A stretch of 64,000 nucleotides of DNA from Eutreptiella sp. 'Long Island Sound 2002'. Taxonomy: Eukaryota > Euglenozoa > Euglenophyceae > Eutreptiales > Eutreptiaceae. Shown here piece after piece: positions 4,216 through 43,900 of the stretch (positions within the stretch are counted from its first letter, which is position 1; each line of letters starts with the position of its first letter). The DNA lies in contig OZ038389.1 of assembly GCA_964036045.1 (NCBI GenBank), positions 42,965,119 through 43,029,118 of the forward strand. The letters are read 5' to 3'. A model generated the notes under the pieces. That model made no database searches, was not told where the DNA came from, and was given only the letters and a program-made list of their open reading frames with translations. A program made the translations under genes and the position numbers.

Positions 4216-5407
4216 TTACTTGCTACTTTGGTTTTGGGATTTCACCATCGAAAACCTGCAGGATTTCATCAAAATCTGTAGGGCACTAATCAAGGCACCA
4301 ATCATTTTTCTGCCCGTGTTTGAGGTAAATCTGATGTCTCTGTCACTGTGTATCCGTTTCGGCATTCCGTAAGCTTGTATCCAACCTTCGAACACCTCTT
4401 TCAAAACGGTTTCTCCATCGCATCTCTTCGTGAGTGGAAACACACGTGTGAATCTACTCAATCCACAGGTCACGAGCAGAGCAAAGTCATGCCCTGAGTA
4501 CTTGGGCATCTCCGTGAAGTCCAAGTACAGCACGCTGTTCGCCATCCTCGGCATAGGCAAGCACGCTGTTAGACCTTGCTCCGCGCTTGTACTTTGCTTG
4601 GCCTTCGTGCATGGGCATTCCGCGCAAACTTCTCTTAAGACTTCGTTTAGTCGCTCTTGACTAAGAATGGTGCAGAAGTGCTTCTCGAAAAACCAACGCG
4701 TTCTTTCTACTCCAGAATGTCCATTCGTCTTGTGTGCCCATCGACCCATCGACTTCATGTGTGTTGACGGCACGCATATCACTTCTTCTCTGTACAGGTG
4801 GCTCGCCGTACGCGCCCATTGGACTCCTCCATCATCCACAAAGCTTCGTCCTTCCTTCAACATCCTCAGGATGGGAAACTCGGGAAGCAGGTCTGTCACC
4901 TTCCAGTCCGTAGATCTCGAAGGTGTAACCTTTGCGAAGAGGTCCAACTGCACTTCCATCTTAGCGAATGCCTCGTTCGCGAGCTCTTCCGTGTCTCGTC
5001 CCAGCAAGTCGTTGAACGAACCTCGTGACAGGTAGTCGCACAATTCATTCTTCACGCCGGGGATGCGGAAGGTCGCCAGTCAAAGTTGTGATAAAAAGGT
5101 CCACCATCTCCAAATCTTTTTTTGCTCGGGCGGTGGCTTGTGTAGGAACGCTGGCGCCGGTTCTTGATCACACAACCACGTCACAGGGGTTGACCCCACG
5201 ATGCGGGTCTGGCTGGCCAGCGACAGAACTCCGCTCATGATCTCCTGCTCCTAGGTCGGGTAGTTCTTCCGGGTGTCATTCCAATTCCAGTTCCAATGGC
5301 CCAGCGGGACCAAACGCCACTTGTCTTCGTTGTACTCATGTCGTAGCGTTCCGTCTCTGTTTACGCCAAGCGTCCTGAGCTTTTGGTCCACTTCTTTGCA
5401 CAAACCC
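4216..5407 (-). pseudogene. G3 pol 3' part: RNase H second half and integrase
   Basis: Reading down from 5407, the RNase H segment includes LGVNRDGTL, LVPLGHWNW and VTWLCDQEPAPAF, then WWTFLSQL followed by an in-frame stop. The integrase ORF follows (5055 to 4216). Its zinc-binding region has H-x4-H (HKTNGHSG) and C-x2-C-type spacing (CAECPC). The core shows two acidic residues, in LYLDFTEMP and IHSDRDIRFTS. The third acidic residue and the C-terminus are missing because the frame leaves integrase similarity near 4250. A frameshift or stop separates the RNase H part from the integrase ORF. Confidence 0.8.
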
Positions 5408-5957
5408 TCTAAGCTATTCCCTTTGAGAAAGCTCTGCGGAGCCTGGCCGGAGGGCTCAGGGCCGGCATGGGGAAAGGGAACGGAGGGCAGGTATCCCTTC
5501 TGTGCGTCCCGGCGGTATGGAGGGGTCGGTGCTGAGGTCTTGCCCTTGGGGTCCATGAGGTACAAGCAGGACAGTGAAGACAATGAAGATGAAGATATGA
5601 ACTTGCAAACAATCCCAGTCTACAAGAAAATGTAGGCGGATAATATGATACATATAATTCCGGATAATTCCTCCTGTATAATTTATAAAAAATCCGATTG
5701 TGAAAAAATATTTGGCTGATTTGATTTACGCACGCGCGCCGGCGATTCCAACAAATCATTGCAACGCGACCATCTCAGCCGCAACGGACACCAGAATTGA
5801 ATCCGGCGTGTCCATAATATACAGGAACTGTTGGAGTAAAAATTTGGGAGCCCCCCAATTTGTAAATGTACGGAAATGAGCTGAATCTGGCTGAATGGGG
5901 GTGCATTGACCTGAATTGACCTCAGATCTGCGCGGATTGAGGGTAGCCGCACTTACA
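5408..5957 (-). repeat. G1m 3' LTR
   Basis: 550 bp, aligned end to end with 40368-40918. I count roughly 22-25 differences including small indels, about 4%. On the minus strand it starts TGTAAGTG and ends CTTAGA, not the canonical CA. It contains a second copy of the gag start (ATG at 5556), which runs into G3 sequence. Confidence 0.9.
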
Positions 5958-8990: not shown

Positions 8991-9789
8991 AGGGCGGCCG
9001 CGTCGGCAGCCTCATCTGACTCCTCCTTGTTTGTTTTACATGGTGGCCGCCTCTGGCGGGAAGGAGTGCTCTCCACCATCAGTGTCCTCTGGCGACCCCT
9101 GTCTCACCTCACGGCCGAGAACTTCAACCAGGTTCCCTTGGGGCATGACCGGTGGTAGGCTCCCTTCAGTCGCTGCCCTCACGGTTTCAGCTCCTTCCGG
9201 TCACCCTTTGAAGGTTCCCCCGGCCTTCCCCCCCTAGCACAGCCTATTGGGCGCCTGCAGGCGGGTTTCCCGTGGATAGCCCTCGCCGACAGCGGAGCAT
9301 TTCTCTCTGTCAACCACATTCCACCTCTCCCCATCCCTCACGGGCTGGAGTACCCACTCGGCTCCCGGATGCACTTGGTTGTCATCCATCCACGGCTGGA
9401 GGCCAGGGGGCGACCCTTTCCACGTTCCCCCTGGTCCCGCTCACGCGTGAACCTACGTGTACTCAGGCCATTGACCCGGGGATCTCAAGGTCAACCCTCA
9501 CCCCTGCGGACACCTCACGGCCGTCCCGGAGTTCAGGGCATTTTCCCGACTTCCCGTGGCCAGGTTCCCCATGGTTGGCCCATGGTTCACCACTCCATGG
9601 CGACTGGTTTCCCAATCCCACGGGGCTGTTGCTTGGCGCTTTCGGCCTCCCTGCCCTTCCCATGTCCCATTCCCCTTTGCCTCATCCCGGCACCGGCCCG
9701 TTCCCAGCGTCCCATGGACTCCCTACCCCTTCGGGCCGTTGTGCGGCCCTAGCCACACGCCCTTCCCCGCCCCGTCCCCTTGTCCCTGC

Positions 9790-10340
9790 ATCCCGTGTTT
9801 ATACCCCACCGGGTCGCCTGCTACCCTGTGGCGCTGGCCCACTGGGGCCTCTTCAATCCGGGGACCGTTTCGTGCGCCTAGCACGGGTCGCTCCCTTCCC
9901 GCCGCCGTCCCTTTCCCCTGTGCCGCAGCCCTGGCCTAATCCCCTGGGCTGTCTTGCGGCCCCATCCCATCCCTCATCCCGTGTTTATACCTCACCGGGC
10001 CGCCAGCAACCCCGTGGCGCGGGCCCACTGGATCCTCATCCATCCGGAGACCGTTTCGTGCGCCTAGCACGGGTCGCTCCCTTCCCGCCCCCTTCCCCCG
10101 TGCCGCGGCCCCGGCCTATTCCCCTGGGTTGTCGTGCGGCCCCATCCCATCCCTCTTCCCGTGCTTATACCCCACCGGGCCGCCAGCTACCCTGTGGCGC
10201 GGGCCCACTGGATCCTCATCCATCCGGGGACCGTTTTGTGCGCCTAGCACGGGTCGCTCCCCTCCCGCCCCCGCCCCTCTCTCCTGTGCCGTCTCTCTAG
10301 CTGTCCTAGTCGACTGGGGCCGTCGCGTGGCCCTAGCCAC
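9790..10340. repeat. About 180-bp tandem repeat in the LINE 3' region, three copies
   Basis: Copies start near 9791, 9977 and 10157 (spacing 186 and 180). Each opens with TCCCGTGTTTATACC or a variant and contains CGTGCGCCTAGCACGGGTCG. The last copy diverges at its end. The proline-rich plus-strand frame running through here is a by-product of composition. Confidence 0.85.
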
Positions 10341-18000: not shown

Positions 18001-20518
18001 GCAGGACCACCAGCATCGCCCTGAACCCCCGGACCAATTTGTCAGGTAGCCTGACCCCCCTCGCCTCCATGGCCTGCACATGTCCCAGCACCACCGCTTC
18101 CTCTGCCCTCTCCAGCCATGCCACTCTGTCTCCTACATCCAGCGCCATGCCTTCCTCTCCACCCCTCCTCAGAAACGCCGACTTCTCCGCGCTCCAGACT
18201 AGGTGGTTATCCCTCCCGTACCTCTGCATCAGGTCCTGTACCACCTGTTGGGCCTTTTCATCCCGCGCCATGGGTACCGCATCATCCACATACGCCTGCG
18301 CCGGCGACGTGTGTGGCGCCCGCGCCAGTTGGGGATATTTCCGCGCTATCCAACTCATCAGGGGGACCATGGCCAGCAAGTACAGGAACGGGCCCTCCAC
18401 CCCGCCTTGTGGCACCCCGCTGCCTGGGGTTACCCACTCGGTACACCCCTTCCCCGTGGCGACCGTGTACCTCCTTGTGCGCAGGTACTTTTCCACGAAG
18501 TCACCATATGGGAGTCCTAGCAGTCGCCACACGTCCTCTATGAGCCTATGCGGCGTGTTGGGGAACGCCCCCTTCACGTCCACAGACACCATGAACGCCT
18601 CTAGGTCCTCATCATCGAGGTACATATCGTACAGGAAGCTTGCTTCCTGTGTGGACCTACCCGGCACTGACCCCCACATATTGTCCGGTATGACCCCCGC
18701 TGCATACAGCCGCGGCTGTATCCTCCCGCAGATCACCATCCAGACCAGCTTGGCCTCTGTGACGGCACAGCATATTGGTCTCCAGTTCCCCGGCCTGAGG
18801 TGATTCCCCTTCTTGTACAGGGGCCGCACCATGCCCCCCCATTCCTTTGGGGGCTCGCCTGTGCGCAACACCTCCGTGACCCTCCCCGCTAGACCATCCA
18901 GCTCCGGCGCCTCCAGGTGCTGGTACGCCTCCGCCACCAGCTGGTCCACTCCCGGGCTCTTTTTCCCCTTGAGAGCCTTCACTGCCTCCTTAATTTCCCC
19001 TAGTGTCACCCTGCTGCGGTGTAGGTCCTCGCTCTGCTCCGCTGTGAACACCCGCGGTAACGCCCTTACCATTCTCCTTGTGATCCCGCTTAGCTCCTGC
19101 TGCCCCTGGTTGTGCTGCCTCCTGAAACTCTGCGCCACCTCCTCCAGCACTTCCTTTTTGTTGCCAGTGACCCTGCCACACTGCAGTCTCACCGCCCTGA
19201 TTTCCTTTGGTTTTCCAGCCTCAGCGAGCTCTCTGATGTACCGTAGCGACTTGTACGGCACCGCCCTTTCCATGTATCTCTCATGCTCCGCCACCACTTT
19301 CTGGTATATCCTCTCGTGTTCCTCCTCCACAGCCCTCCTCGCTGTTCGCACCCTTTTCTCCGCCTGTGTTACCTCCGTTTGCCACTCCGTCCCCGCTCCC
19401 CGCGCCCGTGCCTCGACCTCCTCTTGCTGCCGTTTCCTCAGTGTGGCCACCAGCCTTTGCAGCTTGGGCTGTGCCTGCGACTCCCCCCCTTGCTTGGTAA
19501 ACCCGCATATCTGCGCTGCCCTCCTCATGGCTTGATGTACTTGTTTCCCCTGCCTCATTTCGGCGTGTACCCGCTGCCCCCACTGGTGCCACCTCTCGTC
19601 CCCCTCCTCCGGCCACTTCACCATTGGCGGCAGGCTGACGCCTTCCTCGTCCGACCCCTGCTCATCCTCCTGTTCGTCCCCGGGCTCCCCCACCTTCAAG
19701 TCCACAGTCACCATCATGGGGCAATGCCCCTTCCTGTCCTGCATTTCTTCCGGCCCCACCATGTATCCCGCCGTCACCCCCTTGACCCAGCTGGGGTCCG
19801 CGTACACCGCGTCTATCCGCAACGGGGCGCTGCCTTCCGGTGCCGGGTAGTGTGAGGGGCCCGGCGCTCCACTTTACGACGCGTCCTGCAGCCTCATTTC
19901 CTCCACAAACTTCCGCACCTCACGGTCCACCTCCGTCTCCGCGCCCCTCCTCCGGGGATCGTAGTTGAAGTCTCGAACCACGATGACTGGCCCCCTCTCC
20001 AGCGCCCTGACGTACTCCATCCTCAGCTGCGCCACATACTCCTTGACCCTCCTCCCATGTCGGACAAGGCAGTTGATGATGACTACCTGTCCATGCTCCG
20101 TCGCCATATCATACACCGCCCTTCGTCCCCTCGCTCCCACCTTCTTGTCCTGCACAACGCTGAGCCCTCTGCGCACCAACAGCGGCACGCCCTGCGCCCA
20201 CTCCCGCTGGTACTCTCTCCCCTCCTTGTCGTACATCTGCGCGCACACGACGTTGTCCTTCCCCTGCAACCTTATCTCCTGGTACGCCACCACGTCGGGG
20301 TCCGCCTCATGCAGCTTCATCTGCTGCCACGCTGCCTTGTCCGCCCGATACAGTGCCGCGGGGTCATTATGGGTGTACAACTTCATGCGTTGCCACCTGC
20401 CCTCCCCATCCACTCGTAGATCCCCGTCGTCTGTCGTGCCTTTTTCCTCCCCTTTGTTCCATCCCCCCTGTCTTCGTCTGGCTTCTTTCTTCTTCTTCCC
20501 GGTCGCCCCCCGCTTCAT
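15029..20518 (-). pseudogene. LINE ORF2: endonuclease, reverse transcriptase, RNase H, zinc finger (two in-frame stops)
   Basis: About 1,830 codons in one frame, broken by a TAA at 19874-19876 and a TGA at 15431-15433. The ATG at 20518 is 6 nt after the ORF1 stop. The N-terminal APE-like endonuclease shows LYTHND, YQEIRL, VVRDFNYDP and KGHCPMMV, so the usual GDFN and SDH motifs appear as RDFN and KGH. The RT shows KSPGVDQL, VSVDVKGAFPNT, SGVPQGGVEGP and AYVDDAVPMA. RNase H shows FLDGSG, HGEVQAV, VVDAEADM and NHEADGAA. The finger is CHCGQGQETYEHFMRC. After the second stop the same frame continues with a plausible helical C-terminus (PEAMAHRLLRRMVEHLQERM). It would nick the target and prime cDNA synthesis there. 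Confidence 0.85.
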
Positions 20519-21247: not shown

Positions 21248-21465
21248 CCCCCTCCACCTACTTGGCCTCTCCCCCCCCCTGGTCGTGTTCCACCTCCAGG
21301 CCTGGCTTCCTGGCCCCCTCTGTGAGCCTTCTCGCTCTCTCCAATGCCTCCTTCCTGTGCCCGTCCTCCGTTCCGGGTGCCACGATCCACCTCGGCTGCT
21401 CCCCTCCCCTGCTGCTGGCCACCCACTCCAATGCCAACCGGATCTGTTCCCTGATATCTTCCGCT

Positions 21466-21524
21466 GAGACTACAACACACCTGGTGTACTGGGTAGCCCG
21501 ACAGTCAACCCGAAGGGGACGTAA
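21466..21524. repeat. Right copy of the 59-bp direct repeat flanking the LINE
   Basis: See 8917-8975. On the right it joins uninterrupted G1m pol sequence. On the left the LINE 5' end starts at 21465. Confidence 0.85.
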
Positions 21525-24270
21525 TTGGGCCTGATGTACCAGGAATTTGAAATTTGGATCAGAATTTGATGAAACGGATGTGAGTGAGTAATGTACAAAG
21601 ATGAGCTCAGAATGTCTCGGAAGTGGACGAACAACCACCTGGCTCAACGCTGTAGGCTTGCCGCCACCGCGGAACCGGTCTGGTTGTCTTCGTTCACGCA
21701 CCGGACACCCCTCATTGCCCTCATGTGTACCTTTTGGAGGGGGGCGTGGTGCTTCCGGTCGCACGGCACCTTGAGGCGCCGGATTTCGTGCAGAATATGC
21801 TGGAATCTGTGGCGGAGGAGCTGGATCTCCGTCCACCACGACGGCCTTTGCTCCGTCCCTTTCAACTACACGGTCTGGCTTGCTCAGACAGTCAGTAAAT
21901 AGGACCGGAATCTCAGGATGAGCTCGCAGGTAATTTCTGAAACCTGTGGTATAACCATGTACAAAGGAAGAGGGAGGTTCCCAAGTATTTTCAGACTCAG
22001 GGAAACCCTTGTACTTGACAAGAAACCGCCAAGTACCCTCATTATCCTTAGAATGGTCGACAAAGCGTTCTACCTCGTAATTACCACCTTCAATCCTGCG
22101 TTCGGAAAGCCATTTGGAGGTCCAGAAAAGGGGTTTGACCCTGCCCTTTGAACTCGGAATCTCAGGCTTAAGCCTGTCTCCGCTCACCTCCAACTCCCGA
22201 TTCACATCCACACGTACCTTAAAACTGTTCTCCCTGACTCGAGAAACAATTTCAAAGGGACCTTCCCACAGGGGGAGAAGTTTGGAGTCTCCCTCCTGGG
22301 TAGTTTCACTCTTGCGGAGCCAAACACGGTCTCCCTTTTCGAGATCTTGTGGTTCTTTTCTGCCCTGGTTGGCAATGCTCAACCAATCTGCCGGGAATTT
22401 CTCAACAAGTCGCTTGGCCTCCTTTTCACCAGCCTGAATCTCGTCCAAAAATGCTGATGCATCCTTACATTCCCGTGGATGATCGTACGGGGGGTTCCAC
22501 CAGCACTTGTTTCGACCGAAAACAAGCTGATTGGGTGAGTACCCGTGATACAACTCTGTGTTGTGGTACCGGCGGAGCAGGGCGAAAAGGATCTCAAGCC
22601 AATCAACATCCTTGTCACTGGCGAGTTCCTTTCGCAACATATTAATTATGGTTTTTCCTGCTCGTTCGGCCGGCAATGCCCTGTGCTGGTGGGCCTCACA
22701 TCGAAGATGATGGATTCCCAGCCGAGCACAAAGGGTTTTCCACCACTCAGAAATATATGCACTGCCTGAATCAGTTAAAATCTCCGAGGGTACATCCCAG
22801 CACCCCATCCATGTCTGAGCACACCATTTGGCGGCAGCCTTGCCAGTCATGGCATTCACGTTGCAAGGCAACACATGAATGTACCCTGAGTGTCTACATT
22901 GAATTAATAACACACCATTGATTTTTTTGTTGGTCCAATGGCATTCCTCTCCCTCCAGGTCACCAAGGTAGAAGAAATCAGAGGTGACTCGGTCAAAGAG
23001 TCGCTCGGGTACAGGATGCGGCCTCAGATAGCCCTTAGGCTTGGCCGTAGCAGGCACCGCCACTGCACATTGGGCACATGATGAGGCCACTTTCATGCAG
23101 TGGGTGTGCAATCGAGCTGCAAAGAGACGATGTTTAATGGATTTCCAGAGTTTGGCGCCATGGGAATGAGGAGTCTCCCATTTGTGCCACCAGTTGACAA
23201 CTCTGGACGCCAATTTGTCAGGCACGCACAGTTTCCCATTCATCCACAGTTTTCCGTTGTCCAAAAAATATTCGGAATAAATTCCGTCCTGAAATGCTGA
23301 CTTTGAAGTCAAATGTTCGTAGATTTCTTGAAGCATATTATCAGATTTATATTCTTTGGACCAATCCTTGGTGAGCAGGGAGTCCTTGGGGATGGCCTGG
23401 GCTGGTGCCACAGGTTTTCGACCCAATGGATGGACACATCTGAACCGCACCACAGGATTTCGTCGTTTAACGAACTTGGGGGTGGATTCCCCAGGTTTAA
23501 CTACTCTGAGGGTGTCAACACGCACTGCAGAGCATTCGACATGGGAATGTGGGGGATGATCCTCCACTGTGATATCATGGCAGGGCAATCGACCCTGCCG
23601 GACTGAACACCGTAGACAGTGGCGCTTTTTCAACTGCCGTTCCTCAGCATCCCACTCATTTACTAACCCACGGTCTTGTTCAGTCCCATGGATGTTCGTC
23701 GACAGGCACACTTTGGAAGCAGGATATGCCCATGTGCTTAAAGCGTCAGCGACAGTGTTGTACTTGTCTGGAAGGTAAGCCACATGAGGATCGAAAAGAC
23801 TCAAAAGCTCGTGCCATCTAGCACGCCGTCCAGCAGGACCTGACACCGTGTTGACATGTTCTGGCGACCAATACTCAAGAGAGCGATGATCCGTCAGAAT
23901 TTCAACTTTGTTTGTGCGTATCCACGATTGGTATTTTTTTAAGGCACAGATGATGGCGTAGGTCTCCTGCTCACGGGGGGACCACTGCATTTGTCTGGGA
24001 GAAAGCTTCCTCGAACAGAATGCAAGCGGATAATGAGCCCCAGTTTCTAAATCTTGCTGTTCTAACACTGCCCCAACCGCATACTTACTAGCATCAGTCC
24101 TAAGGTACAAAGGGCGATCGAATTTGGGAAGGTGCAAAGTGGCGACTTCGCAAAGGGCGGCTTTTAATTGCACAAACGCCTCATCGCACTCGTCGGTCCA
24201 CTGCACTCGCACCTTGGAGCCTGCACGCCCAGCCTCCCTACCAACCTTGAGTAATTCAGTAAGGGGGGCG
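21525..24270 (-). pseudogene. G1m pol 3' part: RNase H, integrase, chromodomain
   Basis: The frame is open from 24268 through the 59-bp repeat and on into the LINE as far as 21258. RNase H shows LYLRTDASKYAVGAVLEQ, PREQETYAIICAL, ILTDHRSLEYW and YNTVADALS. Integrase has a zinc region with HKWETPHSHG and CAQC, then VTSDFFYLG, LTDSGSAYIS and LPAERAGKT as the acidic triad. The chromodomain is FLVKYKGFPESENTWEP. After it come a Pro-rich stretch and a tail ending in RCVVVS. G1p interrupts it upstream, between NFYHTFV and APLTELLK. No stop is seen in this stretch. Confidence 0.9.
24266..24270. repeat. G1p target-site duplication, left copy
   Basis: GGGCG immediately before the 5' LTR; identical to 35039-35043. 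Confidence 0.9.
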
Positions 24271-24803
24271 TGTAAGTGCGGCTAGCCCCATCTGCTCAGA
24301 TTTTCAGACATTCTGCCCAGATTGGCTACATTTTGGTCATTTTCTTTGCTTCGGCGGAATTGCCGCCTCGCAGCTCAGTCACAGGATATTTCCTATATAT
24401 TTCTGATATGCCGGATTTGATTCCGCGGTCCATTCCCCGTAAATCCACCGCGTTTCGCTATTTTAGCTGGAATCGCCATTTGCCGCTGACGCGCGCTCGC
24501 GGGCCAGATCGGCCAAACATTTTTACATAAATGGATTATTTAAAATCTTTTCAGACAGTTTTGGACACTCAGATGTATTTAGAATAATTCGCATCAATTT
24601 TCTTCATAGACTGGGATTTTCTGCCGGACCACAATCAGCATGGACCTTGCTTCTGTTGTCGCTGCTCTCGCCTCCGTTGGTGTCCGAGTATCCGGTTCTA
24701 CCCCCAATAACAACATCCAGGGAGACTCCTCGCGTGCCTGCCCCTCTGGTCTTGCCGGCCCCGAGCCCTCCGGCACCCACAACGACCCAGGGCAGCACTT
24801 TCA
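24271..24803 (+). repeat. G1p 5' LTR (contains the gag start codon)
   Basis: 533 bp, TGTAAGTGCGG...GCACTTTCA. TATATAT at 24394-24400 is a possible promoter element. It differs from the 3' LTR at four positions noticed by eye. The gag ATG is the 370th base of the LTR. Confidence 0.95.
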
Positions 24804-27675
24804 TGGTAGCAGAGGCTACCTGAATATTGTTCCTCTGGTGTCCCAACCACAGCTAGCTCCCCAGTACGGCCCCGTAGACTCCGCCACCTCCGGAGACGTA
24901 ACGGTTACGCTGCCGTGGTGCTGTGCGAACGAGGCCTTGAGAGGAATGCCTTGCGCAAGCCCAAATTGCCCAAGAAGGGTACAAATCAGCAGCTGTGGAG
25001 GCCCAGATTACAATCAAGATCCCAGTCGAAATTGGCCATCAAGTAGCTGGAATCTCCCAGCCTACGCTAATGGCAACGCTCCGGTGGAGCTTACGGACCT
25101 GGCAGGTACTAATACTCCTTACCAATGTCCACATTTTGAGACCATCGACGCCGACATTGACGACATTGAGATGGGTGGTCCAGGTGAGGTACCTACCTAC
25201 AATCGACCAGCCTCATGGGCACAATTGGACAACCATTTGTCTTCAGAAGTGACCCGTAACCTTGAGGCGCTTGAGGCCCTTTGTCTATTAGCCACGTCTA
25301 AGCTGATAGGTCAAGAAAGAATCGCCTCTGATTTTTTATTTGAATATTTTTTCCTTCTTCAGGAAGAAATTAATACCAGGATGTGGTGGTGTTCTCAAGA
25401 AGATGAATCTTTTGCCATTTTCTTGCAGATCTGGGAGGCAAGCCCCTTCCCGAAGGAGAAGACCAAGGCACCTGTTGCCGGGCCCTCCGCCCCTCACCCC
25501 TCTGTTTCCATCCGCGACGATCTAGCCGCCGCGGTTGAGGAAGGAATTTTAGAGGCAGCTAGGCAGGCAAGCCTGGAAATTAGGACTGAAGGAGCTCCAC
25601 AAGTGGACTCCTGGCTGCGAACCACTGAGATTAGTGGTCCGACAGCCTGCTCAGGCCCTTCAGGACACGGTATGTACTGTCCTGCCGACTGCTCTTGCAG
25701 ATTACAGCGAGATACTGAGCTCCAATTGCTCAAAGATCAAATGCAACTGATCATTCAGACGCTGGGAATTAAAGATCTTTTCAAGACCCACATGAGGTCT
25801 GAGGGCGCATCATCGGTGGAACAAACAACAGAACCGTCGGAGGAGGCGACAGAAATTTTTTCGATTGCTCCTTCGGTTGACTCTAAGACCACCGACGCAA
25901 GGATCAGCAGGACTAAGCTAAAGGAAAGGGTTACAATCTCTCGATCTCAGAGTAGATCGGCGAAGGCTAGGACTGAGGTTCAGAATGCCAAACGAACTGC
26001 CTCCCGTACTACCCTTCCTGCTGTTGATTCCAATGCAATAGCCCAGATGTTGCTCGCCCAGACCCTCGCCGGAGCTGGTGTGGCTAATGATGCCGCCAAG
26101 GTGTCTGCCATTACGGCCGGTGTTGGGCTGGATTCACTCCTAAATCCCACTTCATTGCGACTTCGTCAGGTTGCCAAGCAACCGAAGTATAATGGGAACC
26201 CCAGACGTTGGCCTCAGTTCCAACGGGAATTTAAATTGTGGGTTAAGACTCAAAAGCTCCAGGATGATCAGTTCCTGATGGCCCTCTTGGACTGCCTTGA
26301 GGGAGCGCCGGCCAACACTTGGCTCAGGACCTGGAGTGATCGTGAGGATTCAAGTTCCCCCCTTACCTTTGATGAGGTGTGGGAACAGTTGGAGGTACGT
26401 GGATCCCGGTTGCCAGAGGACCATTACCACCAGATGTTGAAGAATTTTCCTTCGTTCTCGCGATTAATCTTGCACGAAGTGCAAGACAAAAGACAGCGCT
26501 TCTGGAATCTCGTAGAAGAATCTGAACATTCAGGCGAAAAATTTTCTAGTGCCGAGCTGAAAAATCTGATTTTTGACAAGATCCCCTCAGAAACCGCCGC
26601 CACCCTTCGGAATAGACAGTCCGAAGAAAAGGTCAAGACCTGGTGGGCGGAAGTCGATGGCTTTGACACCTCGGCCAACAGGTTTACCGTCAGGGAGGCA
26701 CTTCAAAAGTGCTCCCCCACGTCGTTTACCAAGGTGAAACTCACTGAAAACACGTGGAAAATCAAATTTAATGAACAGGAGGATCGGGACTTGTTTGTCC
26801 AAGTCCTCAATAGGGGAGTAAGTTTCCACGGCCATCGCCTGAAGGCCAGGAACTGGGTGTTTTCGTTTACCCCGCAGGAACTGTGGGAAGAGGTTGAGAG
26901 GCTCGCTGACGCCGCCAATCAAAATTTCCATGAGGGTCTTGGGGGAAACAGGAATACCCAGCAAAACACCCAAAATGGGGCCCAAAAGGGTAACAAAAAG
27001 GTGAATGACACCCGGAATGTTCAGGATCATTGTAGCATCTGCCTTCTTTTAGGTTCTACGAACCGAGCTAAGACGCATTCTACTGCTAATCACCGATGGT
27101 CTGCTTACGATCACAAGGTGATTGGTGAAAATGTCAGTAATTCACAGAATTCAGACAGGAATGACAGACAGGTGCATGGTGCAAAGGGGGGAAAGGGTAA
27201 TCCGACCCCCTCCGGTGGAAACAAAAACACTGGAGGTCCTGGCGGGTCCCAAGGCAAAGGAAATCGGACTCCATCCGGCTCCGGTGGGCAGCCGAACGGC
27301 CAGACAAGTCCCAATGTCAACGCCGGAGGCGGAAATCGAAATCCAGGTCAAACCCCTCAATCCGGTACAAACAAAGGAAATGCTCCAGGATCACAGGGTA
27401 AAGGTAAGGGAAATCCTTCAGGAACCCCTTTCTCTGGTAAGGGCAGAGGGCGTGGTGACGGTGGTGGTCCATCATCCGGCGGCCGTGGCCGTGGACGTGG
27501 AAAAGGCAACCATCGTGTGGATCAGGTCTCAGGTGCAGACCAGGTGTCCGATGCGGATCGAGATTATGTCGAAAATGCCCTGAATCCAGCAGATGATCCG
27601 TTCCAAGATGAGTGGATCGACGAATCAGGCTGTGTTCACAATGTTAATGCAGCCGCTGGAGGTCAGAACGCCTAG
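24640..27675 (+). CDS. G1p gag polyprotein
   Basis: 1,011 codons from the ATG at 24640 inside the LTR to TAG at 27673-27675. I chose this start because it is the first ATG of the frame and G1m has its counterpart at the same place. The long N-terminal region is weakly conserved. The capsid-like Retrotrans_gag region starts near 26150 (AKQPKYNGNPRRWPQF) and runs to about 26930. A zinc-finger-like motif follows at 27031 (CSICLLLGSTNRAKTHSTANH), a CCHH arrangement rather than the usual CCHC knuckle. The C-terminus is Gly/Asn/Lys/Arg-rich (KGRGRGDGGG), likely RNA-binding. It packages element RNA into particles. Confidence 0.9.
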   Translation: MDLASVVAALASVGVRVSGSTPNNNIQGDSSRACPSGLAGPEPSGTHNDPGQHFHGSRGYLNIVPLVSQPQLAPQYGPVDSATSGDVTVTLPWCCANEALRGMPCASPNCPRRVQISSCGGPDYNQDPSRNWPSSSWNLPAYANGNAPVELTDLAGTNTPYQCPHFETIDADIDDIEMGGPGEVPTYNRPASWAQLDNHLSSEVTRNLEALEALCLLATSKLIGQERIASDFLFEYFFLLQEEINTRMWWCSQEDESFAIFLQIWEASPFPKEKTKAPVAGPSAPHPSVSIRDDLAAAVEEGILEAARQASLEIRTEGAPQVDSWLRTTEISGPTACSGPSGHGMYCPADCSCRLQRDTELQLLKDQMQLIIQTLGIKDLFKTHMRSEGASSVEQTTEPSEEATEIFSIAPSVDSKTTDARISRTKLKERVTISRSQSRSAKARTEVQNAKRTASRTTLPAVDSNAIAQMLLAQTLAGAGVANDAAKVSAITAGVGLDSLLNPTSLRLRQVAKQPKYNGNPRRWPQFQREFKLWVKTQKLQDDQFLMALLDCLEGAPANTWLRTWSDREDSSSPLTFDEVWEQLEVRGSRLPEDHYHQMLKNFPSFSRLILHEVQDKRQRFWNLVEESEHSGEKFSSAELKNLIFDKIPSETAATLRNRQSEEKVKTWWAEVDGFDTSANRFTVREALQKCSPTSFTKVKLTENTWKIKFNEQEDRDLFVQVLNRGVSFHGHRLKARNWVFSFTPQELWEEVERLADAANQNFHEGLGGNRNTQQNTQNGAQKGNKKVNDTRNVQDHCSICLLLGSTNRAKTHSTANHRWSAYDHKVIGENVSNSQNSDRNDRQVHGAKGGKGNPTPSGGNKNTGGPGGSQGKGNRTPSGSGGQPNGQTSPNVNAGGGNRNPGQTPQSGTNKGNAPGSQGKGKGNPSGTPFSGKGRGRGDGGGPSSGGRGRGRGKGNHRVDQVSGADQVSDADRDYVENALNPADDPFQDEWIDESGCVHNVNAAAGGQNA
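24804..24815 (+). promoter_or_regulatory. G1p primer binding site (initiator tRNA-Met type)
   Basis: TGGTAGCAGAGG directly follows the LTR. It is the complement of a tRNA 3' end CCUCUGCUA-CCA, as in many initiator tRNA-Met molecules. It is also read as codons for GSRG inside gag. Confidence 0.9.
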
Positions 27676-30600
27676 GGGAGCCACGAAAATCGCCCCTCCC
27701 CAGGCGATTTCAGGCATGATCCCCAAATTCCTGATCGACCATTACTTGATGTAGGGTCGCTTGTCTCCTCTCCCCTGGATCCGGCAGCGGATCCTTCTGT
27801 TGTAGTGGACGAGGTTGGTGTACAGTCCAAGCACAGGGCTCGTCAGTTTGTCACAAAGCTGTGGGTCTCTGATTGCAAGGGAAATTTCCACCTCGCCACT
27901 TGTTTGTGTGACAATGGATCAGAGGTAAATCTCCAATCCAAGTCATTCTTACCCGACGACTGCGTGTTTGAATCGCCTCATCCTGTTACCCTCGAGGGAG
28001 TTTCTGGACATTCTCTCGCAGGTGGGCAACGCGGTTGTTATATATCAACTCATTTGGTCGCTCAAGACCTTTGGGAAGAGGAAAATGTGGAAGAAGTTGT
28101 CCTTAAGGATGACTACTTCTATCGTGCTGACATAAAGTATGACCTTTATTTGGGCCATCCTTGGCTTCGCAAGAACAGGGTAGCGCCCGTAGGTCATCGT
28201 CGTTGTTTTTTGCTGGAGTCAGGTCCCTTGGAGCGTCCTGAATTTCGTTTTTTGCACGCAGGGTTTAAAAGTGCAGAAGAATTTTTGAAGCAAAAGGTGA
28301 CACCAAAATTTGGTGAAGATGTCACCATTGCAGAGGTGAATGGGAGTGCCGATTACTCCCAAGAGTTAGAATGTCTTCGTAGGGACTCCCAGCCACGACG
28401 CCCTTCGCGCTGGCACTCTTCATCCTACAGAGTTGTCGACAAATGGCGCGATGCAATTTGTGAATATTTTCATGAACACCATTCCTTTTGGCCCCAGTAT
28501 GATGCCTTTGCTAACCGTATGAACAAGCGCTTTGACAAGCACTTCAGCGACGCTTGGACCCACAAATGGGACAAGAAGTTGTGGATTAATCCTCCGTTTC
28601 ACTTAATCCAGCAGGTCATCCACAAAATCAAGCAAGATAAAACCCAGGCAATTTTAGTTGTGCCCTTGTGGGACGACAAGCCTTGGTTTCAGGAATTACA
28701 AGACATTTGTGTAGATTACATCGAACTTCCCAGGAAGATTAAGCTGTATGCCAGGGACGACACAGGTCCCCTGCCACAGCGGTCCTGGAGTTCGCTTGCA
28801 TTCCTGGTGGATGGAAAGCTTTCTGACTCTAATTCTGCTGATTCTGGTACAGATTCCTATGTTGGGTCTGAATCTGAGGTTGAGCGTGGTACTGATAATG
28901 AATCTATTTTTTCTGATATTTGTCCGTCAGATACCCAAGGTGATTCAACGTCCAATGGATCCGCCTCGTCTCCCTCTTCCCCAATACGGTCGACATCGAA
29001 AAGAATCTTCAGTGCACGGGCGAGGAAAAACCTCCAATCGCGCCGCAAATTCAGAGTTTTTTATGAAAAACCCCCTGTGGAAGCTTTCATGGATCCTTTC
29101 GAGGAGCTGGATCACGAAGAGAATCTCTGGGATTTCGACACACGACCCACCTATCTTCAAGAGGCAGTTGATACGGACCTGTTTAGGGACATCCGTAAGA
29201 AGATTCTTCCTGCCAAAGCCGAAGAAGTCGCCAAAGTTTTTTCGACAGTAATTCCTGGCGATCAGGTGGACACTGAATTGTGTTCCAAGTCAAGAGAAAA
29301 GATTTTTGAGGAACGGAAGGACACAACCCTTTCAGGGAAGTTGATCAAAGACCCCCCTGTCCGTGGGCAGTTCGGTGAAGCCTTCATCGAGCTTCGTGAA
29401 GGGTACAAGGCAAAAAAACAGCGCCCTTATGAAAATCATGGACACAAACATGAGATACTCAGAAAAATCATCGAGAGAAATCTCAGGGAATTTGGTTGGC
29501 TTGAGGGTTGTATGACCAGCGAATGGTGCTGTTCACCCTTCACAGTCCCGAAGCCACCGCCTGCAGACCAGAACACCATTGATGGTTGGCGAATGGTTGT
29601 TGATTTTCGCAATCTCAACGCCGAAACAAAGGCGGATTCACACCCCCTGCCCCTCATTGAGGAGGAAATCGCCAAGAGGGCAAGAGGTCGTTTGTTTTCT
29701 GTGCTGGATCTCCGTCACGGCTTTCACCAAATGCCGTTGAGGAAGGACAGCCGACCTCTCACCTGTATGTGCACGCCATGTGGCCCAGTCCAATGGACGG
29801 TCATGCCCATGGGCCTGAAGAACGCCCCCTCATTTTTTCAAAGAATGATGGAGGATGTGCTGTTCACAACCCATCCTGAGCTTCGTGCCTTCGTGAGCGT
29901 GTACATAGATGACATAATCATCGCGACGGAAGGGGAGGGACTGACCGAAGCCGAGCTGGTAGCCCTACATGAGAAGCAGCTGAACCAAGTTTTGGACATT
30001 CTTGACGCTAATCAGCTGATTTGTGGGCCAAAGAAGGGAAAATTATTTTTAAAATCAGTCGAATTTTGTGGTTCTCTCCTAGAGAATGGCACTCGACGAC
30101 CCAGTCCAGGGAAGCTCGTCGCTATTCAGAAGTGGAAGCGCCCTGAGACGATCACGGAGTTGAGAGGATTCCTGGGTTGTTGCAATTTTTACCACACTTT
30201 TGTGCCGAATTATGCCAAATTTGCTGCCCCCCTTACTGAATTACTGAAGGTAGGGAGAGATGCGGGCAAGGCAGGTTCAAAGGTTCGTGTCAAGTGGACT
30301 GACGAGTGCGAGGAGGCCTTCGATCACTTGAAGGCGGCCCTCTGTGAAGTCGCCACGTTGCATGTGCCCCAATTTGACCGACCCTTCTACATTAGAACCG
30401 ACGCTTCTAGGTACGCGATCGGAGCTGTTCTTGAACAGGTTGATGAGGCCACCGGCGATCATTACCCTCTTGCATTTTGGTCTCGGAAGCTAGCCCCACG
30501 CCAAATGCAATGGTCGCCGCGTGAGCAAGAAACCTACGCCATCATCTGTGCTTTAAAAAAGTACCAATCGTGGGTTGGCACCAATCGAGTCGAGGTCCTG

Positions 30601-32859
30601 ACGGATCATCGATCTCTGGAGTATTGGGCCACTGAACACATTGATACTGTCGCGAGCCCAGCTGGCCGACGGGCCAGATGGCACGAATTTCTCAGTCTGT
30701 TTGACCTCCATGTGTCGTATTTGCCTGGAAAACACAACACGGTAGCGGATGCTCTGAGCCGATGGGCTTACCCCGCCTCAGAGGGGCTGCAAAGTACCAA
30801 CATCCATGGTACGGAGCAGGACCGCCATGTCATCATCGAATGGGATCAGGAATAAAAGAAACTCATTCGACGTGCATGCATGCAGTGCGCTGTTAAACAG
30901 CACGCATTGCCGTGTCACGACATCACGGCCATCACAGATCCGGCGCATGCCCATGAGATCTGCACCAAAACACTGAAAGTCGTGGAAAAAGTCACCGATC
31001 CCTCTTCAGGGAGTGTGAAACGGTTTGACTACACCCGACGAGTAAGTCGATTTCGGTTGATCCAAGGCATTAAGCGCCGAGATCCGGCCAAAACTCCACC
31101 CCTGCCGAAGGATTCCCTGATCATCCGTGACTGGACGTCCGATTACCTGCAGGATCCCATGTTTAAAGAGGTCTTTGGAAATCTCAAATCCAAAGATGCT
31201 CACAGGGATGGGATTTTTGCTGAGTACTCGTTGGATGGGGGGAAGCTGTGGATGGAGGGTAAATTGTGTGTGCCAGACGCCCTAGCCCCCCGAGTGTTAA
31301 ACTGGTGGCACAAATGGGAGTCCCCCCACGCACATGGCCGTCGACTGTGGTCGATGATTAAGCATAGGTTGTTTGGATCGAGGCTCTACACTCATTGCAT
31401 GAAAGTAGCCGCCGGATGTGCCCAATGTGCTGTCTGGACGCCCCCCAGCGCGAAGAAGCACGGCCATCTGAGGCCTCATCCTATTCCGGAGCGCCTCTTT
31501 AACAGAGTCACGAGTGATTTCTTCTATCTCGGTGAACTCGATGACGAAGAGTGCCATTGGACTAACAAAAAAGTCAATGGTGTGCTCCTTATTCAGTGCC
31601 GTCATTCCGGCTACATTCAAGTGTTGCCTTGCAACATTGAGTCGATGACTGGCAAGGCTGCCGCCAAATGGTGCGCGCAGACCTGGATGGGAGGTTGGGA
31701 CGTCCCATCCGAGGTGGTGACGGATTCAGGCAAAGAGTACACCTCCGAATGGTGGAGAGAATTATGTGCTCGCCTTGGAATCCACCACCTCCGATGTGAA
31801 ATCCACTCGCATCGAGCGCTGCCTGGCGAAAGAGCCGGCCGCTCACTTATAAATATGCTTCGTAAGGAGCTCGCGAGTGAAAAGGATTTCCATTGGCTTG
31901 AGATTCTGTTCGCCATGCTTCGCCGTTACCACAACACGCCTTTGTATCATGGCCTTTCTCCAAATGAAATTGTCTTTGGACGAAAGAAGTGTTGGTGGAA
32001 CATGCCGTTGAATAATCCTCGCCCCTGTAAGGATGCTTCGCTGTTTTTGGACGAAGTCCAACGAGCAGATAAATCTGTGTCGAAATTAATCGAGAAGCAT
32101 CAAGCTGACTGGCTTTGGGTCCAGAATCAAGGCCGAAAAAACCCCCACAATTTTGAAGTCGATGATCGAGTTTGGCTTCGAAAATCCGAAACCACCATGG
32201 ACGGAGATGACAAGCTTCTTCCCTTGTGGGAGGGGCCATTCGCTGTTACAGCGCGTCTTGGTGAGAACAGGTGGAGGATTCGTGTGGATGTCAGCAGGGA
32301 AATTGACGTTTCGGGCGATCGCCTCAAGAGAGAGATCCCCTCCCCCAAGGATCGGGTTAAACCCCTTTTTTGGACTGCAAAACACTTGTCCGATCGGGTC
32401 ATCGAAGGGGGGAAGTACGAACTCAAGAGGATTGTTGAAGCAAGACGTGACGCCAAGGGCGAATGGGAATTTCTGTGTGAGTGGAGGGGCTTTGATTCCA
32501 GTCATAACAACTGGGAACCAGCCCAATCTTTTGTCCATGGATACACCAAGGGGTTCATTGACTTCCTGAAGAAGCACCCCGAAATTGGCGTACTCCTGAC
32601 AGATTGTTTGTCGAAACCAGACAGACAAGTGGAGAGCGACGGAAAACGACCTGTGGTGAATCGAGATCCAGCCTTTTACGGCCCTCAGCAGCCACATTCC
32701 AGGGCTGATCCGTCGATCCCCCCTCCTGCGGTCAGGCCAGCCCAGGAGCCAAATGAGGACCAAGCTTCGAGTTCGGCCGCTGATTTGCAGCGCCCAAGCC
32801 GTACCAGGGCCCGACCAGACAGGTTGGTGGTCACCTGTATTCGTGCTTGGCCAAATTGA
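27676..32859 (+). pseudogene. G1p pol polyprotein: PR, NPPF module, RT, RNase H, integrase, chromodomain (one premature stop)
   Basis: Directly follows the gag TAG in the same frame; 1,728 codons including an internal TAA (30853-30855) and the final TGA. Protease: LCDNGSEVNL at about 27904, with DNG replacing DTG/DSG. Module: about 28417-28815, with AFANRMN, WINPPFHL (28582-28605) and AILVVPLWDDKPWF. RT: VLDLRHGFHQM, MGLKNAPSFFQRMM, VYIDDIIIAT. RNase H: YIRTDASRYAIGAVLEQ, REQETYAII, LTDHRSLEY, NTVADALSR. Integrase: HKWESPHAHG, CAQC, VTSDFFYLG, VTDSGKEYTS, LPGERAGRS. Chromodomain: EFLCEWRGFDSSHNNWEP, which would bind modified histone tails. G1m has a Glu codon near the position of the TAA, so this is one nonsense mutation between RNase H and integrase. 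Confidence 0.92.
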
Positions 32860-34475
32860 GGAAGCCATCCTACCACATTCTGCTTAATCCACTGTTCATT
32901 CTTTCTGTTTATGTTATGATGTGGAGAACTGCGAATGTTTGATAATTTGACTTCAATCAACTTTTCTTTGGTCTCCGTTCGGCAGACAAGGCGTAGATAC
33001 GCTGACGGAGTGTGCTGCCGTGTTCAGAAAAAACCAAACTCAGGCTTAATTCAGGCAGATTCGGGGTAATCTTGTCTCTGTTGGTCTGTGCATCTTTGGA
33101 ATGTGGCTACTCGTGCAGATGGAAGCAAATGTACATAATCAAAACGCTGGCCAGCGACATTCACCCCTACAGGTAACCCCTGTAGTACTGGCTGCACCAG
33201 ATGCGACGCCAGGAACTCAGATCATACCTTCATTTGCTGTGATGCTGACGCCAAAGTCCAGATTCAGATCCAGGATCCTCAAATTTACCTTGAATTTCTC
33301 AGGTTTGTCCATCATTCTGCCACTGTTGTACGAAACCCAGACGTCAATTGTTCAGACAATCTTCATCTAGGAGCTCTAGGGACTTCTAACAGCCACCTCT
33401 GAAGTCCGTAAGCTTCGTTGTGTTTTTGGCACACGCCAATGTGAGCTCAATCCGACCTGAAACTGTCGAGAATGGTGAATCCAAGTGTCTTGTGGGACTT
33501 CATCGAAAGATTGGCTTTGTCCAAGTCGATTGACACCACCGCCACTGTAAATTCGGTGTCTCTCAGTTATATACTGTCAGTAAAGCGCCTTCAGCGAACC
33601 TTCGGCGCGTTACATGCCAAGGATCCAGGGCTAGCATGTCCCATCATGATGCATCATCACATGATCCACATTTTGATAGAATCTGTTAGATGCTCGCGAA
33701 CCAACGTGCCGGAAAGCACAATTGAGCTGAATAAACGACAATATATATTAACTTTAGTCTAAACGAAAGTGTTAGTAGTTTCAGTTCCAGACATTCCGCT
33801 TCATTTCACCTCCATCTTAGGGAATTTCCTCATTTTAGGACAATTCAGATTGATTTCCTTGTCATCTCCTCTCATTCCTTGAAGATCTGTTTAGATCTAA
33901 GTGAACAGAAGAACATCTCTACCTTCGGTGGTTCACTTAGGGTCTGTAGACTACATGTGTATTTGTTTAACCTCTCCGTGATTGTTTAATCTCCTTCATC
34001 TCTGCTCAATTTAACTCTCATTATTGCTGAATTTTGTGATCATCCACCAGATGCGCCAATTCTGAGCCACATGCTGTACTTTTCAGAACGAGAAAAGCGG
34101 GATTAACACGATGTAGAGTTCGGCGAGGACACCGTAGCGTGCCCGCGACAGCGAAACTGTGCCAGAGCGCCGAGATGTCACTTCAATTCTTGATCCCCCC
34201 ACTCAATCCACCAATAATCTACCTCATTCTCAACCAATGCATGGTTTGGTATCGATTCTCGATAAGTTTACATGCTTTTTAGCCCCTGACCTAATGTTTT
34301 ACTGCACGGAGGACTGTTCGTCACTTCTCATTCTGTCTCATTTCAGGTTCATCCACCCTGATTCAGTGCCAATTCAGCCCAAATCAGGTCAGATCAAGCA
34401 GATTTCGCCCCATCGAGGCTACATTTCTATGTTTTTCTGGGACTTACCCGCACTACGTTCTTCGTTGACGTAGCG
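32860..34475 (+). other. G1p 3' untranslated region
   Basis: About 1.6 kb without a credible gene between the pol stop and the PPT hairpin. It is partly similar in short words to 6.0-7.5 kb of G1m. Confidence 0.7.
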
Positions 34476-40918: not shown

Positions 40919-43900
40919 ATTCCTTGTTCAGGCGCTGCCACTGGAATAGTGTACCTCCGCCTCTGATGTCCGACGCGTCCGTGACCAGTATCATTTCACC
41001 AACTGGACGAGGTACGCCTAGGATCAGACAGTTCTTGAGCTTTCTTTTCATTTCTTCCAGCGCTGCTTGCTCCTTCTTTGTCCGTTGCCACTTGGTCTTG
41101 TTCTTGATGAGGTCCGTCAGGGGAGCACAACTGAAGGTGAAGTTCTTCAGGTGTCTTCGGTAAAGGTTACACGACCCTACAAACTGGCGTACTTTCTTGG
41201 CGCCTTCGGCTTTCCCATTGACTTCGGACTGGTCGAAGTCGAGCACTGGTCGCAGTTTCGCGTCCGTTGGCTCTCACCATCCTGGTCCAATCGTAAATCC
41301 CAGATACTCCATCTCGCTTCTGAGGAACTCGCACTTCTCCAGCTTTATCCTCAAGTGTTGCTCTTGACAGACCTTGAAGAACTCGCTCAAGAGTACTAAA
41401 TTGTCTTCGACTGAGTTGGTCCCTAGCAGCACGTCATCAATTCCCTCCCAACACGGCACCCCTTGTGAGTAGCTCTTGAACGGCTGGTCTCTTCTTGACG
41501 AGGCACAGGACTTGACAATCATCTCCTGAAACAAAGCCGGGGCGTTGCTAATGCCAAAAGGCATCACTCGCCACTTGAAAATTCGGCCTTGCGGAGTGAT
41601 GAAGGCCATCATCTCCTTGGCGCGTTCTGTCAGGTCCACTTGCCAAAAGCCTGACCTCTTGTCCATCTTTGTCTTGAACTTGCAGTCCGCTGCGTTCTCC
41701 ACCGTGTTTTCCATGAACGGCAGGGATGCACTGTGCTGCTTGATGTTGCGGTTGAGTTTTTGATAGTCTACGACTAGCCTCTTCGCCGTAGACCCTGGCT
41801 TCGCCACTAGAAAACAAGGAAAATAATGCTTCGGGTAGTCTCCCTCCTTATATTCCTCGATCAGTCCTGCCTCCACGCACTCCAAAACTTGCCGCATGAT
41901 CTCGTCCATGTCAGCTTTGGAACACGGATAGGGCTTCGACCTTATTTGATCCTTGGCGTGCTCTTCTTTCAGCTCTAAGTCAAGCTGTACTAGCTTTTGC
42001 AGGTTCCAGGTGATGGCAATGGTCCGAACACCTCTTGGTACTTGTGCAACATGTTCCACACACGTTCATCGTGTTCCTTTACCTTGCTCATGAAATCCTC
42101 GCTCGCATGCAAGTTGCTTCGCCCGAACTCATCCTTCTTTTGGTTGTGGTTACCGTCCTGTTTCACTTCCTCAGGTACCCCAACTTAAGTCAGCCCAAGA
42201 GCGCATTCACATCTTTTGGTACATTCTTTCTTCCTCCGGCGTTTGTTCTTCTTGCGTCTCTTCGTGCCGCATAGATTGAGTTCCTCATCGGCATAGTAGT
42301 CCGTTGTCTCCCTGTACTCTTCCAACAGGTCGCACAGATCGGTATAGTTCAAGTTTTCTGAGTACTCGTCTGTCGCCCCAACATCGAACTCAGGCAAAAA
42401 AACTTTCGACTTCCAGAGGTCTTTCAACTCCTCTTTCTGAATCCGGTCAATGCGCGTCCACAGCAGGGCCTTGACTTCTTCTCGATCCTGCTTTGACATC
42501 GGCCATGATTCCGTTCGTTTAGCTAGATTCGTCTTACGCCTTTTTGCTTCGAACTAGTATAGGAACCCATGCCATTCGCTCTTCAGTTGTAGGTTCTCCT
42601 CGATGGTTCGTCGGAGCAACAATTCTGCGTTTTCACAAGCTAAAAGGACGCCGTTCAACATGTCCTCGTACTCCATCGAAGTTTGGTAGCGCCCGTCCGT
42701 CACAGATGTGATGGTGCTTATACTAGGAGCTTCCGACAGCCCGTCACTGTCATGCACTTCTTCTGGGAGTTTACTTTTCCCTTCTGCCGGGAGTTCTCGG
42801 GTCCCTTTGGGTAGTTCCTTGATGGTCACCTTCATGTCTTTGCGTTCTCAGTCTTGTTGCGATTCCCTCAGGTCGGGGAAGTGTTGTAGCATGTGCTTTC
42901 TTCCCCATCCTCGGTTGTTCTTCGTGATCTTCTCAACAACTTCGGGGTTCAAGTCTTCGTGCGCCACCGGGTTGAGTGATCCGTCTACGAGGCACAAGTT
43001 CGTTCGCCACTTTGGAGCGGGAAGTAGCTCCACCCCGTAGTCAACTTTGTACATAGGAACATCGGGTAATCGTACTTGGGTTATTGTCAGTTTGGTCAGT
43101 AACTCTCTCCACGCTTTCTTCATCCACTTCCCTTCTTCAGGTACGACAAGAACTACTCGAGCACCTTCCAGAGCAACTTTCGTCAAAACCTTCTCCATTT
43201 GGGAGAATGGTGGGTTGGTGTACAGGTACTTCCATCTCCCCAGATCTCGCCAACTGTACCACCAAGCGCTATCACCTTGTCTCCAACAGTAAAGGTTGCT
43301 GTCCGCGTTAACGTGGTTAGCGAAGAGTTCGATGAAATCGTCACCGCAGGGATCGCCTTCGATGTTCAACTCCTCGTACGCATGTAGCTTCATCTCAATA
43401 GCTAAGGTGTAGGTCTCCAAGGTTAGTAGCATCTCCTTCTCCAAACGCAGTGGCCCTTCGACCTTCACTTCCGCGTCCAGGTAAAAGCTGATGTCCCTCA
43501 AGACTTTTACTCCTTCGACGATCTCCGCGGTCTCTTCGAGGTGTACCTTCTCCCACTCTCTGTCGTGTGTCAGTACTAGGAGGTGTCTTGGTGACTGAAG
43601 GCCCAGGTAACGAATCTCCGGGTTCTCCTCAAAGAAGTCCTCACCGAGCACTGCGTCGAACGCGTCTGTCTCGAGGACTAAGAAAATTTTCGGTAAACTC
43701 TTCCTCCCTAGAATCACCGTGCCTTTGTACTTCCCTTCAGTCAGGCATATTCTCCCGTCACCAATGCAAATACCACAACTCGGCGTGTACTCAATTTCAC
43801 CCTCAGGTACGTGTTTCGCCGCCATTATACTGCTCGTAGCCCCCGTGTTGATAAAACTTTCAATTGTGGATGCTTCGGTTACTTCGATTGGTAACAGGTA

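Follow-up and report, generated by a model that had tools for sequence, protein, structure and literature searches.

Retroelements with a DNA methyltransferase of their own are already known, with a Dam-like enzyme in DIRS retrotransposons and a Dnmt3 in one Ty3/gypsy family. The DIRS domain was detected with the Pfam family PF05869 (PMC3783388, PMC3266345) and is placed in the order reverse transcriptase (RT), RNase H, methyltransferase (PMC3266345); these elements have a tyrosine recombinase and are without aspartic protease and DDE integrase (PMC3783388), and the role of their methyltransferase domain was stated to be unknown in 2011 (PMC3266345). In KnitGypsy-Dnmt3 of Klebsormidium nitens, a Ty3/gypsy Pol has gained a DNA methyltransferase that is under purifying selection (PMC5890265). 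Orchid Ty3/gypsy elements have been described with an AlkB-type demethylase domain for N6-methyladenosine (m6A) (PMC9289625), and a Sola DNA transposon with a protein that combines ParB and a DNA methyltransferase (PMC12477816). We studied a 64,000-nucleotide stretch of the genome of the euglenid Eutreptiella sp. 'Long Island Sound 2002' (contig OZ038389.1, positions 42,965,119 to 43,029,118), the whole of which is called the window. Three Ty3/gypsy elements in the window carry, between protease and RT, a Pol domain that is under purifying selection and is probably an S-adenosylmethionine (SAM)-dependent N6-adenine methyltransferase, distantly akin to phage-type Dam, which would methylate the new DNA of the element. 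The position of this module, its homology among elements, its profile kinship, its predicted fold and its constraint in one family were computed; SAM binding, activity and a DNA substrate are inferred.

The three elements were named G1p (plus strand), G1m and G3 (both minus strand). In each of them a protease region lies upstream and RT downstream of the module, an arrangement that the original prediction, made from the sequence alone, had proposed for a block centred on the motif NPPF. The block measures about 140 residues, and NPPF is encoded at exactly the coordinates first given:

28378..28830, plus strand: Dam-like methyltransferase module of G1p, NPPF at 28588-28599 (Pfam Dam, PHROG 111, predicted fold, hhalign)
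36435..36875, minus strand: Dam-like module of G1m, NPPF at 36654-36665 (Pfam Dam, PHROG 111, identity to G1p)
42920..43492, minus strand: Dam-like module of G3, NPPF at 43205-43216 (Pfam Dam, PHROG 111, predicted fold, E 2e-11 to G1p)

The modules of G1p and G1m were 56% identical over 198 amino acids. Those of G1p and G3 were 29% identical over 121 amino acids with an E-value of 2e-11, which indicates that the module is common to two families by descent and not by a chance of motifs. When the 64-kb window was searched in six frames with a profile of these modules, no fourth locus came up (all other matches had E > 2). NPPF, present in all three modules, agrees with motif IV, (D/N)PP(Y/F/W), of the N6-adenine methyltransferases, as had been noted. 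Two other motifs first read as common were less general: AFANRMN is replaced by AFCNELK in G1m and LFANHVN in G3, and thus is not shared by all, and the last motif is PLW-x-x-x-PW instead of PLW-x-x-PW and occurs in G1p and G1m only, G3 having VVLVVPEEGKWMKKAW at that position.

Pfam Dam (PF05869) was the only family that matched the module of all three elements (E 0.0022 in G1p, 0.025 in G1m and 0.16 in G3), two protease families outranking it in the G3 frame over the protease part. The PHROG family phrog_111, DNA methyltransferase, also matched the three (E 0.0018, 0.043 and 0.091, respectively), and among 30 aligned members Dam was matched by 19 (best E 9.7e-5), phrog_111 by 12 and TIGR01712 by 3 (best E 0.045). 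Cytosine methyltransferase families were absent from the Pfam matches at E ≤ 1 of the window modules and the 30 members, and that identity was rejected on this ground. A profile of phage Dam was then compared with the modules by hhalign; it contained 11 stretches gathered from orf13 of Haemophilus phage HP1 onward (orf13 matches Pfam Dam with E 7.1e-75). The profile-profile probability was 93.4% for all modules, 93.0% for G1 and 63.5% for G3, as compared with at most 4.0% in 50 column shuffles per profile and at most 1.0% with the reversed phage profile; a profile of 142 homologs reached 82% (40 shuffles, at most 2.2%). The proposed kinship with Dam-type N6-adenine enzymes is thus supported by family libraries, profile-profile comparison and predicted fold (see below), the match being significant at the profile-profile level and below the Pfam cut-off for single sequences. 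Searched by sequence against the PDB, G1p alone found only a TIM barrel designed by artificial intelligence (E 0.017), and a profile of G1 and G3 relatives found protease-type and unrelated chains and no methyltransferase; two scans of viral contigs showed no relative of the module.

Two AlphaFold models, of G1p and G3, were obtained from different alignments. Both presented, at medium confidence, a methyltransferase fold nearest to N6-adenine enzymes, and not the unrelated fold that would have spoken against the original prediction. The fold lists also held DOT1L, FtsJ, fibrillarin and an O-methyltransferase, so that the substrate is not fixed by fold alone.

Selection was estimated from genomic copies as the ratio of nonsynonymous to synonymous variation (pN/pS). 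The G1 sample consisted of 40 of the 142 integrase matches, all on the plus strand and spread down the list, which were chosen by integrase and not by module; two copies (L036 and L043) in which a region was < 85% identical were dropped and 38 were kept. An earlier sample of 20 copies (L012-L031) was set aside because it had been picked by best module match and cannot show selection on the module. For variants present in at least two of the 38 copies, pN/pS was 0.10 in the module (22 synonymous and 8 nonsynonymous), 0.07 in RT, 0.20 in the protease, 0.23 in the pre-module region and 0.58 in the tail that follows the module. The module is under purifying selection, and in G1 the constraint is at the level of RT, the tail being much freer, so the idea that the module is retained by selection was borne out. 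NPPF was intact in all 38 kept copies of G1 (39/40 overall) and in 38 of 40 copies of G3, and no variant was found among the G1 copies at residues 117-134 of the 28237-28860 translation, the NPPF stretch, which is among the most constrained. For G3, 40 plus-strand matches were taken (ranks 2 to 83 of 150; 37 to 40 copies per region), and the shared-variant pN/pS was 0.09 in the protease (39 copies), 0.06 in the module (40 copies; 16 synonymous and 3 nonsynonymous), 0.21 in the linker (38 copies) and 0.11 in the start of RT (37 copies); these matches had been ranked by module, which biases the module value low and counts against its use, and weight was therefore placed on G1.

The host genome, of 2.28 Gb, contains hundreds of copies of the module in at least three module-bearing families. 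The paraflagellar-rod family PF05149, a mark of the Euglenozoa, had 39 matches in this genome (best E 1.2e-105), against zero in 14 control genomes. Identity was at least 98% in each of the 150 matches scored for the G1p module and of the 142 scored for the G1 integrase (the initial candidate tallies, 24,939 and 33,329, respectively, are not copy counts). For the G3 module 150 matches were scored: 139 had at least 77% identity, the window's own included, and the other 11 had 50-52%, which shows a third family. In a broader search of proteins, 1299 of the 7994 that were scored had E ≤ 0.1 (120 listed). Protein P0035, listed as representing 5370 member sequences, presented in one frame of 981 amino acids a protease (7-91), a Dam match (156-213), RT (617-788) and RNase H (from 856) and corresponds to a further family beyond those three, probably in the same organism; P0047 repeats this order from protease through Dam match to RT. 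Therefore, the two families of the original prediction do carry the module, and their number was set too low. Dam was matched in 8 of 9 proteins scanned, always below the cut-off (best 20.9 bits), and of the 148 sequences that module searches had gathered, every one contained the module by a domain profile, 142 in near-complete form. P0044 stands on a contig of just 1908 bases and may be of other origin. One G3-type protein, P0014, has the module followed by a sequence like the zinc-binding part of integrase, RT being absent between them, and may have arisen by a deletion that spared the module; Integrase_H2C2 was matched by one of the 30 aligned members, which we presume to be P0014.

Module and RT diverged in parallel, with 29% and 31% between G1 and G3 and 37% and 60% between G3 and P0035, which fits an old single gain and names no donor. 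This bears on an origin that is independent of what the module does: a methyltransferase domain that gypsy elements captured from DIRS when elements recombined, as opposed to one that came straight from a phage or bacterium. PF05869 is also the Pfam family by which the DIRS domain was recognized (PMC3783388), and such a capture is possible, with the odds somewhat against it.

Several results weigh against the identification of the module as a Dam-type enzyme under selection. The Dam scores were 18.1 (G1p), 14.7 (G1m) and 12.1 bits (G3), as compared with a Pfam cut-off of 28.1, which no single sequence among those scored passed; the three-module profile reached only 17% with HP1 Dam alone, and the 93% needed fuller profiles on both sides. 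Mean pLDDT (predicted local distance difference test) was 60 and 62 in the two models and < 50 in the loop around the presumed SAM motif (residues 93-104 of G1p and 58-87 of G3), so that no SAM pocket is demonstrable from them; VIA Z values were mostly < 8, TM-scores by query length did not exceed 0.5, and the G3 model had no PDB match at E ≤ 0.001. With singletons included, pN/pS of the module rose to 0.26 in G1 (protease 0.41, pre-module region 0.63, tail 0.79, RT 0.25) and to 0.42 in G3 (protease 0.61, linker 0.50, start of RT 0.48). Between G1p and G1m, for which only pN was used because synonymous sites were saturated in most regions (pS 0.56-0.85), the module diverged more than RT (0.27 vs 0.16-0.21), the protease and integrase having 0.21 and 0.16, respectively, but less than the module flanks (0.41). 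Among the 142 near-complete homologs only 109 have the exact NPPF, many being apparently decayed copies. Finally, the PDB entry that Foldseek ranked first for the G1p model, PCIF1, is an RNA enzyme.

The fold match of G1p to PCIF1, which methylates adenosine at N6 in a cap-specific manner, makes an RNA target the most serious competitor of the Dam-type reading. The module would then be an RNA N6-adenosine methyltransferase that acts on element RNA, at a cap-proximal or internal site, in favour of translation, packaging or escape from RNA sensors. Two further RNA enzymes, KsgA and Erm, have good scores in the fold comparison, and three PCIF1-type proteins of giant viruses are within the 24 best BFVD matches; however, the first of these ranks 17, after seven named N6-adenine-methyltransferases, the sequence profiles favour Dam of phages, a DNA enzyme, and no Pfam match at E ≤ 1 was to the PCIF1 family (PF12237). 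We consider an RNA target unlikely. A methyltransferase that has lost its catalysis and now serves RT as a structural or nucleic-acid-binding extension would agree with a module placed upstream of RT in one frame (P0035), with the weakly modelled SAM-motif region and with the lack of an evident canonical SAM motif I. This reading is quite improbable, given how strictly the catalytic motif is conserved among the G1 copies (see above); in phage Dam, moreover, NPPY is present in 11/11 aligned proteins and the motif I region is similarly unusual. A chance resemblance of motifs in an ordinary gypsy linker, to which only the single-sequence Pfam scores under the cut-off could point, was rejected as highly improbable from the G1p-G3 homology, the shuffle controls, the agreement of two models from different alignments and of three family libraries, and the selection.

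The rest of the three elements was located as follows, the LTRs being long terminal repeats:

24271..24803, plus strand: 5' LTR of G1p (blastn self-comparison, edges, target duplication)
24610..27675, plus strand: gag-like open frame of G1p (stop to stop, 1021 amino acids; labelled by position only)
27829..28236, plus strand: aspartic-protease region of G1p, with CLCDNGSEVN (position and sequence; alone without Pfam match)
28831..29049, plus strand: acidic low-constraint tail of G1p, the internal control (shared-variant pN/pS 0.58)
29050..30855, plus strand: RT and RNase H of G1p (RVT_1 3.8e-26, RT_RNaseH_2 4.7e-30)
30856..32859, plus strand: integrase of G1p with chromodomain (rve 1.7e-6, 28.7 bits, cut-off of 32.6 not reached; Chromo 3.1e-6, above cut-off)
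34506..35038, plus strand: 3' LTR of G1p (self-comparison, edges)
36984..37565, minus strand: protease region of G1m (open reading frame, 72% identical to G1p over 134 codons)
35099..36305, minus strand: RT of G1m in two overlapping frames (69% and 82% identical to G1p RT, codon comparison)
21258..24281, minus strand: RNase H, integrase and chromodomain of a G1-type element (RT_RNaseH_2 2.3e-29; rve 7.7e-5, below cut-off; Chromo 6.9e-10)
43628..43867, minus strand: protease region of G3 (gag-asp_proteas E 0.0025, frame residues 20-99, below cut-off)
41274..42065, minus strand: RT of G3 (RVT_1 8.6e-25)
4216..5079, minus strand: integrase core (rve 2.3e-5, 25 bits, below cut-off)

G1p follows the order gag-like frame, protease region, module, acidic tail, RT, RNase H, integrase and chromodomain. 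Its LTRs, of 533 bp each, were 99.07% identical over a 540-bp match in the blastn self-comparison, and its insertion is flanked by a 5-bp target duplication, GGGCG (24266-24270 and 35039-35043). With RT and RNase H of LTR type, a DDE integrase followed by the chromodomain, and LTRs with the duplication, it presents the traits of a chromovirus-like Ty3/gypsy element. Aspartic protease and DDE integrase, both lacking in DIRS, are present in the elements of the window, and a tyrosine recombinase (PF00589) was not matched in the scanned element frames (Pfam E ≤ 1 or E ≤ 0.01). The protease part of a profile of G1 and G3 relatives weakly matched DDI1-type retropepsins (E 0.0069); the G1 protease has DNGS where D(T/S)G is usual (window 27910-27921, P0001-P0006 and G1m), and the relative P0009 has DTGG. 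The tail of G1p between module and RT is also serine-rich, perhaps a processing linker. The copy of G1p in the window is interrupted by a stop between RNase H and integrase, and many genome copies are a single frame of 1727 amino acids; uninterrupted frames of exactly this length recur in the distant G3 family. G1p appears to lie inside G1m and G1m inside G3, a triple nesting at 4216-45954 in which all three elements have the module. The minus-strand frame at 21258..24281 is read as the remainder of G1m beyond the G1p insertion; G1m has an LTR-like pair (5404-5957 and 40364-40918, 95.7% identical in self-comparison) from which, with the frames on both sides, its nesting in G3 was deduced, and the integrase core at 4216..5079 is possibly, to judge from its position, the far part of G3 beyond G1m. 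Elsewhere in the window, a minus-strand frame of 1480 amino acids (15431-19873) had RVT_1 (2e-19) as its sole Pfam match at E ≤ 0.01, perhaps a non-LTR element, and a tandem repeat with a period of 180 bp (2.7 copies) was found at 9783-10272.

Pol is encoded as one chain in the long-frame copies, so that the module would be carried into the particle together with RT. Its candidate substrate would be the complementary DNA (cDNA), or else the RNA:DNA hybrid that the neighbouring RT and RNase H of this polyprotein produce. The module would probably methylate adenines of the cDNA during or right after its synthesis, and the mark may help the cDNA to pass as host DNA or to evade a nuclease, a sensor or a silencing step before integration; alternatively, the gain might be a favourable state after integration. 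We tentatively suggest, as the less probable part of our proposal, that a lineage of LTR retrotransposons marks its own cDNA with N6-methyladenine, in the manner of the methylating partner in a restriction-modification system, and that this trait came about in Ty3/gypsy separately from the DIRS arrangement and aided the spread of several families in the 2.28-Gb genome. With the predicted adenine methyltransferase, elements would be able to put a chemical mark on their DNA copies, and the recent copies in a likely culturable alga would make the role testable.

In the open-access literature, most subscription journals being outside its reach, we saw no description of Ty3/gypsy elements with a Dam-type domain, and hence no sign that the module is an already described gypsy domain, nor anything on euglenid gypsy elements; the available parts of PMC12477816, PMC12440569 and PMC5348765 do not report such a domain either. 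Among the known systems, phage-type Dam (PF05869/TIGR01712, e.g., HP1 orf13) shares with the module D-x-x-A, W, NPP(Y/F), a hydrophobic-P-x-x-x-x-x-W block and the fold. These are stand-alone phage proteins, whereas the module stays below the Pfam cut-off and diverges after the NPPF block. PCIF1 has the solved fold nearest to the G1p model, without a sequence match in the Pfam scans, and is a cellular RNA enzyme with other domains. KnitGypsy-Dnmt3 differs in having a Dnmt3-type C5-cytosine enzyme, called structurally unrelated to Dam-like enzymes, and DIRS-like repeats (PMC5890265). The orchid elements are likewise Ty3/gypsy and also bear an extra enzyme that deals with N6-adenine marks (PMC9289625), although theirs is an eraser in an additional frame and that of the window a predicted writer within Pol. 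With DIRS the likeness is a retroelement Pol with a Dam-family domain, and the differences are that the module precedes RT and that protease, DDE integrase, chromodomain and LTRs are present. A related domain is now found in a different element class and in a different place, upstream of RT, with RT-like constraint in a family of many young copies and conservation in a second, distant family; an enzyme of one kind lies next to reverse transcription in two different arrangements, which speaks for a function at the cDNA step. What appears to be new with respect to all these systems is a predicted Dam-type domain in Ty3/gypsy, before RT, in several families with hundreds of copies.

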